DNA from: Algibacter sp. L1A34
Lineage (GTDB): Bacteria > Bacteroidota > Bacteroidia > Flavobacteriales > Flavobacteriaceae
Direction of reading: 5' to 3'
Assembly: GCF_009796805.1 (NCBI RefSeq)
Contig: NZ_CP047029.1
Span: 2,180,501-2,244,500, forward strand
Length of the DNA stretch: 64,000 nucleotides
Numbering within the stretch: the first letter of the stretch is position 1; every line of letters starts with the position of its first letter. The translations under genes were made by a program, and so were the position numbers. The notes beneath the pieces were generated by a model, which was given only the letters and a program-made list of their open reading frames with translations, was not told where the DNA came from and did not search any database. Shown piece after piece: positions 27,690-33,527 of this stretch.

Positions 27690-28439
27690 TTATCTTAATA
27701 TTCTAATCTTATCAGAAACGCTACCGCGTTCACCAATTCTCGCAGCTAGAAGTATCATTTTAATTGTGAATTTATGATTGGTTATCGTTTTTGAGAATTC
27801 GGCTATCTCTCCATCACGCTTCAATATAGCATTGTTTTTTGAAAGTATATCTGGTTGATTAACCATGGTGTTGGCAAACTTCCAAGCTCCATCGCGAGCC
27901 ATATTCATACTAAAGTTTATTAAAAAGTCATCGACCTTATTCGTGAATTTTAAGATTTTGAGAAGGGTTGGCCAAATTTCAGACAAATCGGCTAGTACAT
28001 CATTAATTAATGCGGAGAGGATATCATTTATTTTGTTGAAATCGGACTGTAAACTTCTAATTGTTGAAGGGTTTGATATTTCGGCTGCGGCAATACCTAA
28101 GTCTAAATTAATATGTGCATTCATTCCTAAAAGTAAATGTTGAAGTACGATAGGTGGCCAAGTAAAGGAAGTATCAAAAGTTGATTGCCAAGATTTAGAG
28201 ACTGGTTGATTTTGTTTATAATTTGAATAAGCCATTAAATAGCGATTGGCAAAAATAACATCTAACTTCTCCATTCTTACATCATCATCAAAATAGTTTG
28301 TGCCGAGTTTATTTTTAACCGTTAGAGTTACTTTTTGATATAGCGCCGCAAAATAACCAAGTGTGCTTTCTTCTTTTATAGAAGTTTGGATAATGAATTC
28401 TAAATGCTCAATAACTTCATCAATGGTAGTTGCAATCAT
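27690..28439 (-). CDS. DUF5995 family protein
   Basis: A 249-residue soluble, mostly helical protein. The central motif TWPPIVLQHLLLGMNAHINLD, with conserved His residues, matches DUF5995 as I know it. The His-rich motif suggests a metal site, but no function is assigned. It ends the minus-strand series that begins at udk, 24 bases after the cobalamin-domain fragment. Confidence 0.72.
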   Translation of the reverse strand: MIATTIDEVIEHLEFIIQTSIKEESTLGYFAALYQKVTLTVKNKLGTNYFDDDVRMEKLDVIFANRYLMAYSNYKQNQPVSKSWQSTFDTSFTWPPIVLQHLLLGMNAHINLDLGIAAAEISNPSTIRSLQSDFNKINDILSALINDVLADLSEIWPTLLKILKFTNKVDDFLINFSMNMARDGAWKFANTMVNQPDILSKNNAILKRDGEIAEFSKTITNHKFTIKMILLAARIGERGSVSDKIRILR

Positions 28440-28463: not shown

Positions 28464-28967
28464 TTAATTAATCAAAATCTCTAATATTTTTATAGCGGCT
28501 TCGCTAATTTTAGTTTTAGGATCAAAAATGGCAATAACGCCTGCATCAATCAAAAAATGATAATCTTGTTTTGATATTACGCCCTCAATGATAACCATAA
28601 TATCTTCACGTTCATAAGCTTTAAGCGCATCTATAACTTCTAGAACGAGTGTTTTGTGTCCTGTTGTTAACGAGGAAATATTTAAAATATGTATATCGTT
28701 TTCTACAGCTTGCTTTGCAACTTCGGTAGGCGATTGGAATGATGGACCAATATCAACATCAAAACCAATATCGGCATAACTTGTGGCAATTATTTTCGAG
28801 TTCTGATCATCTTGTCCCATTTTGGCAACCATAATTCTAGGGCGTCTTCCGTCTTGCTCGGCAAAAATGTCGGCTAATTCTTGAGCTTTATTAAAGGATA
28901 TATCTTTTTTTATTGCTTTGTTATACATATCAGAAAATGATTTAGTTTGAGACTTTATGTCTTCCAA
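28464..28967 (-). CDS. Cobalamin-binding-domain fragment of methylmalonyl-CoA mutase, motif degenerate
   Basis: A 167-residue fragment equal to the C-terminal B12 domain normally fused to the mutase large subunit. The only start near the overlap is TTG (28967); the first ATG (28928) would remove 13 residues. Family motif DxHxxG is replaced: [14 protein letters not shown], so the cobalt-ligand His (His610 in Propionibacterium) is Gln55 and one residue is missing. SxL is kept (SSL, 98-100). GG is EG (128-129). The domain therefore probably does not bind cobalamin in the usual way. It is out of frame by +1 with the upstream part, so this is either a relic or an unusual split. Confidence 0.7.
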
Positions 28968-30585
28968 ATTCTACTTCTAAAGCCTTGGTTATTTCACCTA
29001 TAGTAGCGCGTTCGCGAGCAGCTTCAATAGCTAAAGCTAATAAATTATTTTGTGCTGTGCGAGCAGCTTCCGTTAAATTTGATAAAGCTGTTTTTACGTT
29101 TTCAGAATTTCTATTTGCTTTTATTTGTTTTAAACGGTCTATTTGATTGTTTCTAACCGTTTCGTTATTAGTTTCAAGCGTAGAAATAGAATCTTCTTCT
29201 TCAAGAACATATTTGTTTACTCCAACAATAATGTCTTGATTAGAATCAATTTTTGCTTGTTTTTTAGCAGTAGCTTCTTCAATTCTAAGTTTAGGGATTC
29301 CTGCTTCAATAGCTTTACTCATACCTCCAAGAGATTCTATTTCTTCAATTAAAGTCCAAGCTTTGTTTGCTATATCGGCGGTTAGTTTCTCTACAAAATA
29401 ACTGCCTGCCCATGGGTCTACGGTCTTTGTTATTTGTGTTTCGTCTTGTAAATATATTTGTGTGTTTCTAGCAATACGTGCCGAGAAATCGGTTGGTAAC
29501 TCAATGGTTTCATCTAAAGTGGAGGTATGTAAACTTTGAGTGCCTGCAAATACCGAAGATGTAGCTTCAATAGTTGTTCGAGTAATATTATTAAAAGGAT
29601 CTTGTTTTGTTAAACTCCAACCAGCCGTTTGAGAATGTGTACGCAATGATAATGATTTTGGGCTCTTCGGGTTAAATGGCTTGATTAGTTTTGCCCATAA
29701 CATTCGTGCGGCTCGCATTTTGGCAATTTCCATAAAATGATTCATGCCAATTCCCCAAACGAAAGAAAGTTTTGGCGCAAATGCGTCTATATCTAAGCCA
29801 GCATTAAGTCCTTTTTTTATATACTCCAAACCATCGGCTAGGGTATAAGCCAATTCAATATCACAGGTAGCTCCAGCTTCTTGGATGTGGTATCCAGAAA
29901 TACTGATGCTATTAAACTTCGGCATGTTTTTGTTTGTGAATTCAAAAATATCCGAAATAATTTTCATTGATGGTGTTGGCGGATAGATGTCGGCATTATC
30001 CAGCATAAACGCCTTTAAAGTATCGTTTTGGATGGTGCCAATTAATTGTTCTAGTTTTACACCTTGCTCTTCTGCAGCTATAATATAAAAAGCCATGATA
30101 GGCAAAACAGCTCCATTCATCGGTATGGAAATCGAGATTTTATCGAGAGGAATTTGGTCGAAGAGTATTTTTATGTCTTCAACAGAATCTATAGCAACAC
30201 CAGACCTTCCAACATCTCCATCCATGCATTCGTAACTGGAATCGTAACCAAGATTTGTTACGGAATCTAAAGTAATTGAAAGTGTTTTTTGTCCTTCTTT
30301 TAAACTATGTTTATAAAAAACATTACCATCTTTAGCAGCAGAGAATCCAGCATGATGCCTAATGGTCCAAGGTTTTTCAACATACATTGTGCTATATGGG
30401 CCGCGTAAATAAGGTGGTATTCCAGCAGCAAAATTGAGATGTTCTAAATCTTCAACATCCACTTTAGAATATTTCGGTTTAAACGGAATGCCTTCGGAAG
30501 TGATAAAGTTTTCAGTTTTATTCACTTCCAAATTTTGGCTTTCAGCTTCTGCTTTTAAAGTAATATGTTGAAGGTTTTTTCTCAA
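28942..30585 (-). CDS. Methylmalonyl-CoA mutase large subunit, catalytic part, active site altered
   Basis: A 547-residue protein matching the TIM-barrel part of the mutase large subunit nearly end to end. The family normally continues in the same chain into the B12 domain (about 700 residues). Against Propionibacterium numbering, Tyr89 is His78 (TIRHHAGFS), Arg207 is Asp196 ([10 protein letters not shown]) and the loop normally reading FDLPTHRGYDSD is [12 protein letters not shown]. Gln197 and His244 equivalents are kept (Gln186, His233). Tyr89 and Arg207 contact the substrate, so normal catalysis is doubtful. The frame is open and most of the chain well conserved, so decay is recent or selection persists. 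Confidence 0.8.
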
Positions 30586-30588
30586 TTT

Positions 30589-31242
30589 TTATTTAGTTAT
30601 TGGCCTTTTATTAAAATCTACTTTTTGTTCAACAATTGGTTTTTCTTTCACATTAGATAAATCAATATCGAAAAGTTTCGCGTAATACAAATCTAAAGCA
30701 ATGTAAGTCGCTAAATATTTATCTGAAATTGCAGCTCTATAGTTTCGTGCAATTGGCGTCACGAATAATTGAGGCTTCATACTATTGGTTGTAACTAGCG
30801 CATCAAATGTTGTTTTTAAGTTTTTATCTTTTAAGTTACTTGCAATACAATTAATCAAATCGCTTTTGTAATTTAAATGGCTGTCTGGATTGTTTGCATC
30901 CCAAAGGCTTCCTTCGTTTTTTAAAGCTTCAAATACTTTTACGGTGTGTGGAGAAACTACATCGGCATATTTTACTCTATTAATAGTAGCATTTCTAAGA
31001 AATTGCGAGTAAGAGGTGGTCATGTTTTTTTGTCCGTTTTTAGCATAAAATGAAGCAATATCATCTTCAAAGCTAAATAAGGCTTCATTTATTAAGGCTG
31101 TATTTTGGTTTTCACAGTTAATAACGTTGCCTTTTTCTGCAAATTTGTAATCGTTAAAAGTATTTTCTTTTTTACAACTTACAGCGGTTAATGCCACTAA
31201 TAATAAGATAATGTTAACGGTTGATTTCATTTTGTTTTTCAT
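30589..31242 (-). CDS. Hypothetical lipoprotein between the mutase genes
   Basis: A 217-residue protein with a lipoprotein signal (LVALTAVSCKKEN). The mature part is helical with no recognised motif. It overlaps the mutase small-subunit gene by 29 bases from ATG 31242; the ATG at 31230 is a possible alternative start. Its stop is three bases before the start of the large-subunit gene. Envelope location makes a direct mutase role unlikely; the link is transcriptional. Confidence 0.65.
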   Translation of the reverse strand: MKNKMKSTVNIILLLVALTAVSCKKENTFNDYKFAEKGNVINCENQNTALINEALFSFEDDIASFYAKNGQKNMTTSYSQFLRNATINRVKYADVVSPHTVKVFEALKNEGSLWDANNPDSHLNYKSDLINCIASNLKDKNLKTTFDALVTTNSMKPQLFVTPIARNYRAAISDKYLATYIALDLYYAKLFDIDLSNVKEKPIVEQKVDFNKRPITK

Positions 31243-32596
31243 TTTTTAATCGGGTTTGTTCTACTTGTTCTGATAATCGTTTTTCTATAATGGGAGCAAT
31301 TAAAGTCTTTCTCTTATTTATTTTTACAAAAGGATAAAGCTGTAATTGGTGTTCCATTTTATCGTTTGGGTTAATGTGTTTATTTGTGCCTAATAAAACA
31401 CGCTCACCACTATTAAATTGTTGTTGCTCTTTATCTGCACTTTCTTTAATTTTACGTTGAATAGTGCCAGATTTTAACTGATTTAAAAATCCGCCATTAC
31501 GTTCAATATTTTTAAATAAGTCTAATGCTTTTTCTGCTAATTGTTCTGTTAGCGATTCTATGTAATAGGCGCCATCGGCCGGATTGTTCACTTTATCAAA
31601 ATAGCTTTCATGCTTTAAAATAAGCAGTTGGTTTCTAGCAATACGTTCTCCAAACTCGTTATCTTTATGGTAAATGGCATCGAAAGGCAAGTTACAAACT
31701 GTATTTGCTCCGCCCAAAATGGCACTCATGCATTCGGTGGTTGTGCGTAATATATTGGTATTGTAATCGTAGAGTGTTTTGTTACGTTTTGTTGGCGTGG
31801 CAATAATGTGGCAATCTGTATTTATGTTGTATTCTGTTGCTAAAGTACGCCATAGTAGTCGTAAAGCTCTAATTTTTGCAATTTCAAAGAAATAGTTCGA
31901 TCCTACTGAGATGCTAAATATTGTTTGAATAGTTTGCTTAGTATCTATTTTTAAATGGTTGAGATATTCGTTGGCATGCGCTAAGGCATAGGCTAATTGC
32001 TGAACGATATTGGCTCCAGCATTTTGATACAAACTAGTGTTTATATTTATTTGTTTTGAACTCTGAAAACAAGTTTCGAATTTTGAAAAATCATCGGTTA
32101 AACTCTTAAACCAGTTGCCCGTTTTAGCAAGGTTTCCGATAATATCAACTGAAATGGTAATGTCCCTTTTCCCCGTAAGGGTTAATATTTTTTCAATAAA
32201 TTCTACAGATAGAAACTGTAATTCAAAATGAATAGGAATAGCAGAGGTATCTATGTTTTTTAATAAACTTTCAATAGAAATATTTTCTTCGGAAGGAATA
32301 ATGAAATGAATACGTTCTGCGCCGCGTTTAATTGCATTTACAGCTTTTAAATTCGAGTTTTCAATATGAGCAACAAATATGGTTTGTCCAATTTTCCATG
32401 GAGAACCGCTTATTGATGAGGTTGTTGGGTTTTTTTTTAAATCGTCGGTATTATAAAATGGTTTTACAGCAATATCTTCGTTTGAATTCCAGATAAGGGT
32501 ATCGTTAAAATCAGCTCCATTTAAATCGAACTGAATTTTTTGTTTCCATTGTTTAGTAGAAACCGGATCGAAACCATCAAACAAGCCTTTACTCAT
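31214..32596 (-). CDS. mutA: Methylmalonyl-CoA mutase small subunit
   Basis: A 460-residue homologue of the mutase barrel: FDPVSTKQWKQKIQFDLNGAD at the start, then ALRLLWRTLATEYNIN and SAILGGANTVCNLPFDAIY, and ADGAYYIESLTEQLAEKALDLF near the end. As usual for the small subunit in Bacteroidota, there is no B12 domain. It is structural, pairing with the large subunit to form the heterodimer that converts methylmalonyl-CoA to succinyl-CoA. It overlaps the divIC-like gene by eight bases and the lipoprotein gene by 29. Confidence 0.85.
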   Translation of the reverse strand: MSKGLFDGFDPVSTKQWKQKIQFDLNGADFNDTLIWNSNEDIAVKPFYNTDDLKKNPTTSSISGSPWKIGQTIFVAHIENSNLKAVNAIKRGAERIHFIIPSEENISIESLLKNIDTSAIPIHFELQFLSVEFIEKILTLTGKRDITISVDIIGNLAKTGNWFKSLTDDFSKFETCFQSSKQININTSLYQNAGANIVQQLAYALAHANEYLNHLKIDTKQTIQTIFSISVGSNYFFEIAKIRALRLLWRTLATEYNINTDCHIIATPTKRNKTLYDYNTNILRTTTECMSAILGGANTVCNLPFDAIYHKDNEFGERIARNQLLILKHESYFDKVNNPADGAYYIESLTEQLAEKALDLFKNIERNGGFLNQLKSGTIQRKIKESADKEQQQFNSGERVLLGTNKHINPNDKMEHQLQLYPFVKINKRKTLIAPIIEKRLSEQVEQTRLKNEKQNEINR

Positions 32597-32921
32597 CTTT
32601 TTTTACTTTTAAACTATCTTCATATTCAATGATGTAAATTTCTTCATTATCACGCTTCATGAAATATTCTTCTCGGGCAAATTTTTCTAAACCTTCTTCC
32701 GAGCTTAATTTTTTAATTGCTTTATTATCGTTTTCAATTTCACGCTTATAATATTCTTTTTCATTTTCTAAAGCATCAATATCGGTATTTAATTCGTGAT
32801 GAATGAGCCAAGAGTTGGCATCGAAAAAAATCATCCAAATCATGAAACCAGCAAATATCACGATAAACCAATTTTTAAAAGGTTTTAAATATTTACTTGT
32901 ATTTTTATTGAATTTCGCCAT
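32589..32921 (-). CDS. FtsB/DivIC-type septum protein
   Basis: A 110-residue bitopic protein: short basic N-terminus, one membrane helix (WFIVIFAGFMIWMIFF, about 17-32), then a periplasmic coiled coil (about 45-80) and the conserved GLEKFAREEYFMKRDNEEIYII segment typical of FtsB/DivIC. It likely bridges the cell-division complex with FtsL and FtsQ. It starts on the base after the udk stop, and its stop overlaps mutA. Confidence 0.85.
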   Translation of the reverse strand: MAKFNKNTSKYLKPFKNWFIVIFAGFMIWMIFFDANSWLIHHELNTDIDALENEKEYYKREIENDNKAIKKLSSEEGLEKFAREEYFMKRDNEEIYIIEYEDSLKVKKDE

Positions 32922-33527
32922 TTAGAGTCTGTCGTTAATAATGGTGCGCACAATATCCACCGCAACGGTATTGTATTTATTATTTGGTATAATAATATCG
33001 GCATATTCTTTCATAGGCTCGATAAATTGGTCGTGCATTGGTTTTAATGTTGTTTGGTAACGTGTTAAAACCTCGTTTATATCTCTACCGCGTTCGCTAA
33101 TATCACGTTTTAAACGGCGAATTAAACGCTCGTCTGTATCGGCATGAACAAATATTTTGATATCGAACATATCACGAAGTTCGGGATTTGTTAATATTAA
33201 AATACCTTCAACAATCATCACTTTTCGTGGATGTGTTAAAATAGTATCGCCCGTTCTATTGTGTTTTACAAATGAATATACGGGTTGATGTATGTTTTTT
33301 CCTTTTTTTAATGCTTTTAAATGTGTTTCTAATAAATCGAAATCTATGGATCTAGGGTGATCGAAATTTACGTTAACACGTTCATCAAGAGATAGGTGAG
33401 TATTGTCTTTATAATAGGAATCTTGCGAAATAACACCTACTTCACCTTCAGGTAATTCGTGTAGAATTTGATTTACAACCGTTGTTTTTCCGCAGCCAGT
33501 ACCGCCTGCAATTCCTATAATTAGCAT
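32922..33527 (-). CDS. udk: Uridine kinase
   Basis: A 201-residue cytoplasmic nucleoside kinase of pyrimidine salvage (uridine/cytidine to UMP/CMP). P-loop GIAGGTGCGKTTV at residues 5-17; SQDSYYKD and NFDHPRSIDFDLL are uridine-kinase motifs, and RRLKRDISERGRDINEVLTRY is the lid. Length is normal. First gene of the run udk-divIC-mutA-lipoprotein-mutase. Confidence 0.93.
   Translation of the reverse strand: MLIIGIAGGTGCGKTTVVNQILHELPEGEVGVISQDSYYKDNTHLSLDERVNVNFDHPRSIDFDLLETHLKALKKGKNIHQPVYSFVKHNRTGDTILTHPRKVMIVEGILILTNPELRDMFDIKIFVHADTDERLIRRLKRDISERGRDINEVLTRYQTTLKPMHDQFIEPMKEYADIIIPNNKYNTVAVDIVRTIINDRL

Follow-up and report, generated by a model that had tools for sequence, protein, structure and literature searches.

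The closest described systems to the locus studied here are the heterodimeric MutA/MutB methylmalonyl-CoA mutases (1REQ, 6OXC) and 2-hydroxyisobutyryl-CoA mutase (4R3U), an active enzyme with B12 on its small chain. We analysed a window, i.e., a stretch of 64,000 nucleotides (G000:C1:2180501-2244500), from Algibacter sp. L1A34, whose genome is one contig of 4,638,103 bases. The window holds a native mut locus whose MutB is probably dead and B12-free, at an early stage of a recurrent conversion to a non-enzymatic pair. The genes follow one another along the minus strand as udk, divIC, mutA, a lipoprotein-like ORF of 217 aa, the MutB catalytic ORF and the B12-domain ORF (udk and divIC are the presumed identities, as named in an earlier note on this DNA):

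32922..33527, minus strand: udk
32589..32921, minus strand: divIC, with an 8-bp overlap with the mutA start
31214..32596, minus strand: MutA, native small subunit, 460 aa, 127/129 conserved sites kept
30589..31242, minus strand: lipoprotein-like ORF, 217 aa, between mutA and mutB
28942..30585, minus strand: MutB catalytic-domain ORF, native large subunit, 547 aa, substrate residues lost (PF01642, 696 bits)
28929..28967, minus strand: linker with frame change, the catalytic stop lying 13 nt ahead of the B12-ORF ATG
28464..28928, minus strand: B12-domain ORF, 154 aa from the ATG at 28928, cobalt-ligand His lost (PF02310)

The earlier note had placed this copy at its usual site after udk, divIC and mutA, in agreement with our results, and had read positions 28464-30585 as a single gene, where there are actually two ORFs in different frames. 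Counted from the first TTG, an in-frame alternative start at 28967 that gives a B12 ORF of 167 aa, the two ORFs overlap by 26 bp, and counted from the ATG at 28928 they are separated by a 13-nt gap. The 167-aa form matches PF02310 with 35.3 bits against a cut-off of 32.1. The lipoprotein-like ORF gave zero matches in Pfam and NCBIfam. In part of the family such an ORF likewise separates mutA from mutB, and it still adjoins MutA after MutB loss in G088, G334, G348 and Confluentibacter flavum. Besides, a DUF5995 protein (27690-28439 in the window) is encoded after the B12 ORF in the same orientation; its gene also adjoins MutB in G002 and G004, and none was seen in G001 and G003.

The native large subunit was compared with 1REQ_A, the Y89F entry 5REQ_A, the B12 domains in the PDB and an alignment of 13 sequences. 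We assume that a literature residue number equals the 1REQ chain index plus one (our own conversion). The substitutions reported in the earlier note were recovered, namely Tyr89 to His (RQYAG to RHHAG, seen against 1REQ_A, 5REQ_A and the alignment), Arg207 to Asp (FMVRN to FMLDN), the THRGYDSD loop to TNLGYDSS, and GG to EG in the B12 ORF (GGVIP to EGVIS), with Gln197 and His244 retained in the catalytic ORF. At the DxHxxG motif the reported loss of the cobalt-ligand His holds, but the deletion spans two residues and not one (MGQDGHDRGAK to MGQD--DQNSK). In addition, the Arg at position 283 is replaced by Lys, and 70 of the 437 positions that are invariant across four intact natives are changed. 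An alignment artefact as the origin of the substitutions is ruled out by the 1REQ comparison together with the 13-sequence alignment. Among 76 named native MutBs adjoining MutA, DGHDRG, TIQNDILKEFMVRNTY and the GGVIP/GGVVP motif are kept in all 76, RQYAG in 75, THRGYDSD in 74, and GYHMQEAG, counted in its literal form only, in 69. This near-invariance indicates that the changes in the window exceed chance.

The AlphaFold model of the catalytic ORF (mean pLDDT 63, pTM 0.69) finds its best Foldseek matches in 6OXD_A, 4REQ_A and 1REQ_A (TM of about 0.85 by query length), and its predicted fold is still mutase-like; the models of this ORF and of MutA say little on function. The ORF also scores 892 bits with NCBIfam NF006944 (cut-off 876), so automatic annotation would name a dead ORF a mutase, a label by which models that take B12 dependence from gene names would be misled. 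Judged by its residues, the native MutB is no normal mutase and appears to be dead, and we infer that the native pair has lost both B12 binding and the isomerisation of acyl-CoA. The retained His244 and Gln197, and the B12-domain chain that is separate in known mutases (4R3U), would suit a pair that still acts as a mutase on another substrate or with another mode of cobamide binding, and that receives its B12 domain on a separate chain, like the isobutyryl- and 2-hydroxyisobutyryl-CoA mutases. Such activity is very improbable given the loss of the GG motif and of the His that binds cobalt in the window, the loss of this His in 7/7 separate B12 ORFs (see below), and the changes of Tyr89, Arg207 and the THRGYDSD loop.

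The earlier note had proposed a search for a second complete mutase, and the genome does contain one, an intact pair at C1:3836214-3839311 with complete mutase motifs. In this pair MutA-II (599 aa) adjoins MutB-II, and the module around it comprises a carboxyltransferase, OAD_gamma, a biotin carrier, OAD_beta and an acetyl-CoA hydrolase/transferase family protein, with MeaB nearby. This gene content suggests that succinate is converted to propionate by way of a sodium-pumping methylmalonyl-CoA decarboxylase. MutB-II is approximately 66% (66-67%) identical to the catalytic ORF of the window and approximately 73% to intact natives. A large frame of 1149 aa at C1:11884-13554 is presumably IcmF. 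Considering the intact second pair, the native pair looks redundant. We lean slightly towards the reading that the MutB of the window is a redundant dead remnant that persists as a pseudo-subunit of MutA, at an early stage of a recurrent route.

We surveyed 397 genomes of the family. Module-type MutA occurs in 24 of them (G000 included), 333 have native MutA (E <=1e-75), and 341 have a full MutB, whichever its type (E <=1e-100). Of the 24 module genomes, 21 have native MutA; it was not found in G029, G279 and G284, the last of which yielded neither native MutA nor native MutB. Among these 21 carriers, native MutB is intact in seven (G019, G067, G074, G144, G222, G288, G389), all seven tested motifs being present in six of them and six motifs in G389. 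It is damaged in five (G000, G003, G018, G148, G295) and reduced to the B12 ORF in one (G161), and no native MutB piece was found beside MutA in the other eight (G036, G088, G098, G137, G146, G173, G334, G348). MutB also occurs in 309 of the 312 non-carriers with native MutA, as judged by an E-value cut-off that is blind to active-site residues, and the contrast between carriers and non-carriers (7/21 vs 309/312) gives a Fisher p of 4e-17 with kinship ignored. Contrasts within single genera agree with it (G018 vs G271, G161 vs G349, G348 vs G160, G146 vs G340, and G000 and G003 vs G001, G002 and G004). The non-carriers lacking a full MutB are G143, a 200-contig draft that has MutA and neither MutB nor module, G297, which is 76% complete and holds a damaged catalytic ORF of 428 aa on a separate contig, and G170. 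Decay was rejected as the origin of weak MutB scores in non-module genomes, since the ten inspected (G246, G115, G107, G315, G248, G404, G251, G269, G331, G411; G075, G093, G177 and G319 were left out) show long open frames bearing insertions, pieces at contig ends or N runs. On a MutA tree of 66 sequences, the loci that lack an intact MutB fall into 16 maximal clades. This figure depends on the sampling, on the assumption of irreversibility and on the grouping of G170 with G297, which is uncertain and may reflect long-branch attraction; we speak of several independent events and do not claim 16.

That MutB is not intact in 14 of the 21 carriers that keep MutA, with no recognisable remnant in eight, would be expected if the module pair had replaced the native enzyme and the native MutB were a young pseudogene whose frames are still open as leftovers of recent function, with MutA kept for another reason. 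We hold such plain decay to be conceivable, if somewhat doubtful. The pseudo-subunit reading is weakened by the same survey, as MutB is gone and MutA stands alone in 8 of the 24 module genomes, and G284 has neither.

Some loci of the survey have an unusual architecture. Two native-type MutA/MutB pairs are present in G030 (L047, L048), the second adjoining carboxylase genes. At L107:7036-7248, a near-copy of the MutB N-terminus (70 aa) lies between the lipoprotein-like gene and the full MutB, approximately 1.9 kb ahead of the latter, as a partial duplication with inserted DNA. MutB with an N-terminal extension of approximately 300 aa was seen at L053:3887-6892 (G046), and frames of approximately 1000-1037 aa in G041, G043, G054, G056 and G058; the G046 frame partly matches a second mutase-like stretch and may be a MutA-MutB fusion.

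Branch omegas were estimated with our own codon-ML script on a tree of the same genus. For the MutB catalytic ORF, omega is 0.051 in the background, 0.187 on the window branch and 0.177 in G003, which is above the background (2dlnL 36.5 and 33.9, respectively) and below 1 (2dlnL 51.6 and 78.4). The catalytic ORF of the window evolves at 3.6 times the background rate, yet is sub-neutral, and selection on it is weakened and not absent. Constraint on the MutA of the window matches that in relatives whose enzyme is intact (omega 0.116 in the background, 0.124 in the window, 0.114 in G003). On the same branches, udk and divIC show no significant change, and neither does a pqq-type neighbour, with an omega of 0.042 in the background, 0.071 in the window and 0.078 in G003 (2dlnL of 2.5 each against the background). 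An omega of 1, expected of a neutral pseudogene, was not found on the window branch, and a recent switch to neutrality could still fit.

The lesions of the MutB in the window consist of a single frame change, located right at the boundary of the two domains, and a single two-codon deletion, with zero stops; approximately 4.2 stop codons would be expected in the catalytic ORF if the excess of missense changes were neutral. The erosion is regional and falls mostly in the active-site half, with conserved sites lost at 36/134 in residues 78-228 and 19/170 in residues 229-420 (Fisher p 5e-4); the N-arm lost 1/39 (p 6e-4) and residues 421-544 lost 14/94. Both the missing stops and this strong regional bias argue against plain decay, whereas the raised omega, the frameshift and the many invariant residues lost argue for it. 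In G003 the erosion is even along the protein (29/134, 28/170, 21/94 and 6/39; p 0.30, 0.50), which also favours plain decay and weakens the pseudo-subunit reading. The latter is further weakened because long constraint followed by recent neutral decay, over approximately 14% of the branch, gives the same mean omega; under this mix, the Poisson chance of the missing stops is approximately 0.016 by our own arithmetic. The earlier note had named close relatives with identical substitutions as evidence that would count against its interpretation, and the four other genomes of the genus include no such case, native MutB being full-length in G001, G002 and G004 and differently damaged in G003. A dead ancestor shared by G000 and G003 was considered and rejected, since only 5 of 23 co-changed aligned positions carry the same residue and G000 groups with the intact G001 and G004 (deeper nodes with 55 and 81% support).

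Besides the window, G148, G422, G161, G018, G029 and G279 also have a separate B12 ORF (154-159 aa), and the cobalt-ligand His is gone in all seven. The window fits the split type of degenerate MutB seen in G148, G422 and G018, with a catalytic ORF and a His-less B12 ORF beside MutA. For G029 and G279, only a B12 ORF was found after divIC, and MutA and the catalytic domain were not found. The B12-like ORFs of these two genomes (L066:3469-3948 and L067:3650-4123) are both open and 33% identical, and the omega between them is saturated, with the optimiser at its bounds.

Across 122 distinct intact linkers between the two domains, one position is always Val, followed by Tyr and then by S, G, K, A or R. 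The Val codon has become ATG in the window, G148 and G422, representing three lineages, and G161 keeps GTG at this place as a likely start; all four have Asn in third position. The B12 ORFs of G018, G029 and G279 start elsewhere, without an ATG at the linker Val. The recurrent ATG is suggestive of selection for initiation and is not proof of it, and it speaks against plain decay that three lineages have gained an ATG precisely at the B12 piece. On the other hand, the absence of a new ATG at the Val in G161, G018, G029 and G279 weakens the pseudo-subunit reading, as does a frameshift known from one genome, where a sequencing error is possible. A single indel in one genome, with no second strain found in the split state, is what an error of sequencing or assembly in a fused, inactive protein would produce. 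We regard this as improbable, because the ATG lies 13 nt after the stop and takes the place of the Val found in every one of 122 intact linkers, because the independently split genes of G148 and G422 show the same ATG, and because the genome is one contig.

Shortened MutBs were studied in genus g67, in which 38 genomes were searched, 28 gave a match at 1e-20, and 18 loci were taken in addition to G295 and G074; the module status was established for 6 of the 13 g67 genomes with damaged MutB. Intact MutB of 685-686 aa is present in seven (G074, G430, G439, G440, G441, G449, G450), and in G422 MutB is split into 485 and 156 aa. A single shortened MutB of 205-392 aa occurs in 12 species, in all of them after a MutA of 387-446 aa:

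205 aa: G295
208 aa: G425, G428, G436
333 aa: G423
365 aa: G429
381 aa: G443, G457
382 aa: G424, G427
389 aa: G447
392 aa: G446

Pairwise omegas are 0.076-0.184 for the MutBs of 205-208 aa (four pairs) and 0.099 and 0.134 for those of 381-392 aa (two pairs), all significantly below 1 (2dlnL 47.5-143.8), with several dS values saturated. The MutAs beside them have pairwise omegas of 0.053-0.138, significantly below 1. As pairs of intact g67 MutBs have lower omegas (0.014-0.029), the shortened forms are constrained, and less so than the enzyme. This purifying selection on the shortened forms of relatives also speaks against plain decay. Between G425 and G295, the dS of the mini-MutB is lower than that of the adjoining MutA, possibly due to gene exchange or saturation.

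In a core alignment of 15 shortened MutBs (the 12 of g67, G018, G297 and G170), none of the 15 lacks residues 241-300 or 381-400, and mean occupancy is 13.6-14.9 at residues 1-20, 61-80, 301-320, 341-360 and 401-420. Occupancy is low at 101-120 (5.8), 181-200 (6.0), 201-220 (9.0), 321-340 (6.2), 361-380 (4.1) and 421-500 (0.3-3.3), and identity to the intact protein in the poorly kept stretches is at most 1.6 of 15. These stretches presumably hold the active-site loops, as assigned from 1REQ. G170, a genome of one contig with a completeness of 100, has a MutA of 444 aa and a mini-MutB of 214 aa, and no PF01642 match was found in this complete genome outside the mini-MutB locus.

Among 80 named loci, MutB lies beside MutA in 76, and the exceptions are all four Confluentibacter species, in which the omega of MutA is 0.084 against a background of 0.041 and below 1 (2dlnL 602). 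At 129 MutA sites conserved across 110 intact loci, orphan MutAs keep 0.937 on average (0.71 in G037, from another family, and 0.91-0.99 in the others), and MutAs with a damaged partner keep 0.809 (range 0.64-0.98). Beside shortened MutBs, the loss of conserved sites lies mainly at residues 276-332, a segment that follows strands 262-268 and 299-301 in the AlphaFold model of MutA (mean pLDDT 75.5), and by this model both subunits seem to be losing the same face. The MutA of the window does not show this loss at approximately 276-332, and its MutB is unlike the trimmed pairs of the g67 and G170 type, with 547 aa and loops that are present but altered. Since its MutA is not co-eroded as beside the shortened MutBs, the window possibly lies off the trimming route.

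The constraint on MutA while native MutB decays could also result from a subunit swap, in which native MutA serves MutB-II as well. The eight MutA-only module genomes carry MutB-II (by definition of the set) and keep 95-99% of the conserved MutA sites in six cases and 91-92% in two, and Confluentibacter is MutA-only in 4/4 species with a low omega, though one twice the background. Nevertheless, the module has its own MutA-II beside MutB-II, and a swap accounts neither for G170, which lacks MutB-II, nor for the selection on shortened MutBs; G143 has MutA without MutB or module, though it is a fragmented draft. We give the swap some credence, short of favouring it, and it is possibly compatible with either retention or decay of MutB.

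Considering the evidence from the relatives, retention of the native MutB as a partner is somewhat likelier than plain decay. The pseudo-subunit reading would involve the following steps. The second intact pair in the module would make the native MutB redundant, and this redundancy would free the active site, so that its residues are lost; the linker between the catalytic and B12 domains would then break, and the B12 piece would acquire its own start codon. MutB would be trimmed towards the N-terminal arm and a few helices, a retained core that we take as the presumed MutA-facing surface, and what remains would persist for now as a pseudo-subunit of MutA. Our guess is that, in the remaining complex, the MutB remnant stabilises MutA in a structural or regulatory role. 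The earlier note had posed a dying enzyme against a B12-free role; these are the right alternatives, and for the window copy either may hold. The module with the second pair, the unchanged constraint on mutA and the recurrence in relatives go beyond that note. For the family, we consider it fairly probable that Flavobacteriaceae hold a recurrently evolved, cobalamin-free and non-enzymatic mutase derivative, composed of MutA and a stripped MutB and under purifying selection even in G170, in which MutA has a second job independent of the mutase and of which the window would be a first step, its B12 domain being already on the way to a gene of its own.

Among the papers that could be searched, we found none joining 'methylmalonyl-CoA mutase' and 'pseudoenzyme', and no description of such a MutA/MutB remnant. 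Within one genus, the graded series of 685-686, 485+156, 333-392 and 205-208 aa shows a route from a large metalloenzyme to a small selected protein. From this series MutA, which annotation treats as no more than the silent half of the mutase, is predicted to have its own function. The pair of the window resembles the heterodimers 1REQ and 6OXC in fold, gene order, N-arm and helices, and differs from them in lacking the substrate and cobalt-ligand residues, in having the B12 domain as a separate ORF and in a MutA without the C-terminal domain (460 vs 616-637 aa). It shares with 4R3U the placement of the catalytic and B12 domains on separate chains, but differs from it in having lost the ligand His and in being recently split, the fused state being 99% conserved in close relatives. 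Compared with the module pair, to whose MutB-II the catalytic ORF is 66-67% identical, complete motifs, a small subunit of 599 aa and decarboxylase neighbours belong to MutA-II/MutB-II. The likeness to pseudoenzyme subunits in general would be that of a dead paralogue kept for binding over catalysis.
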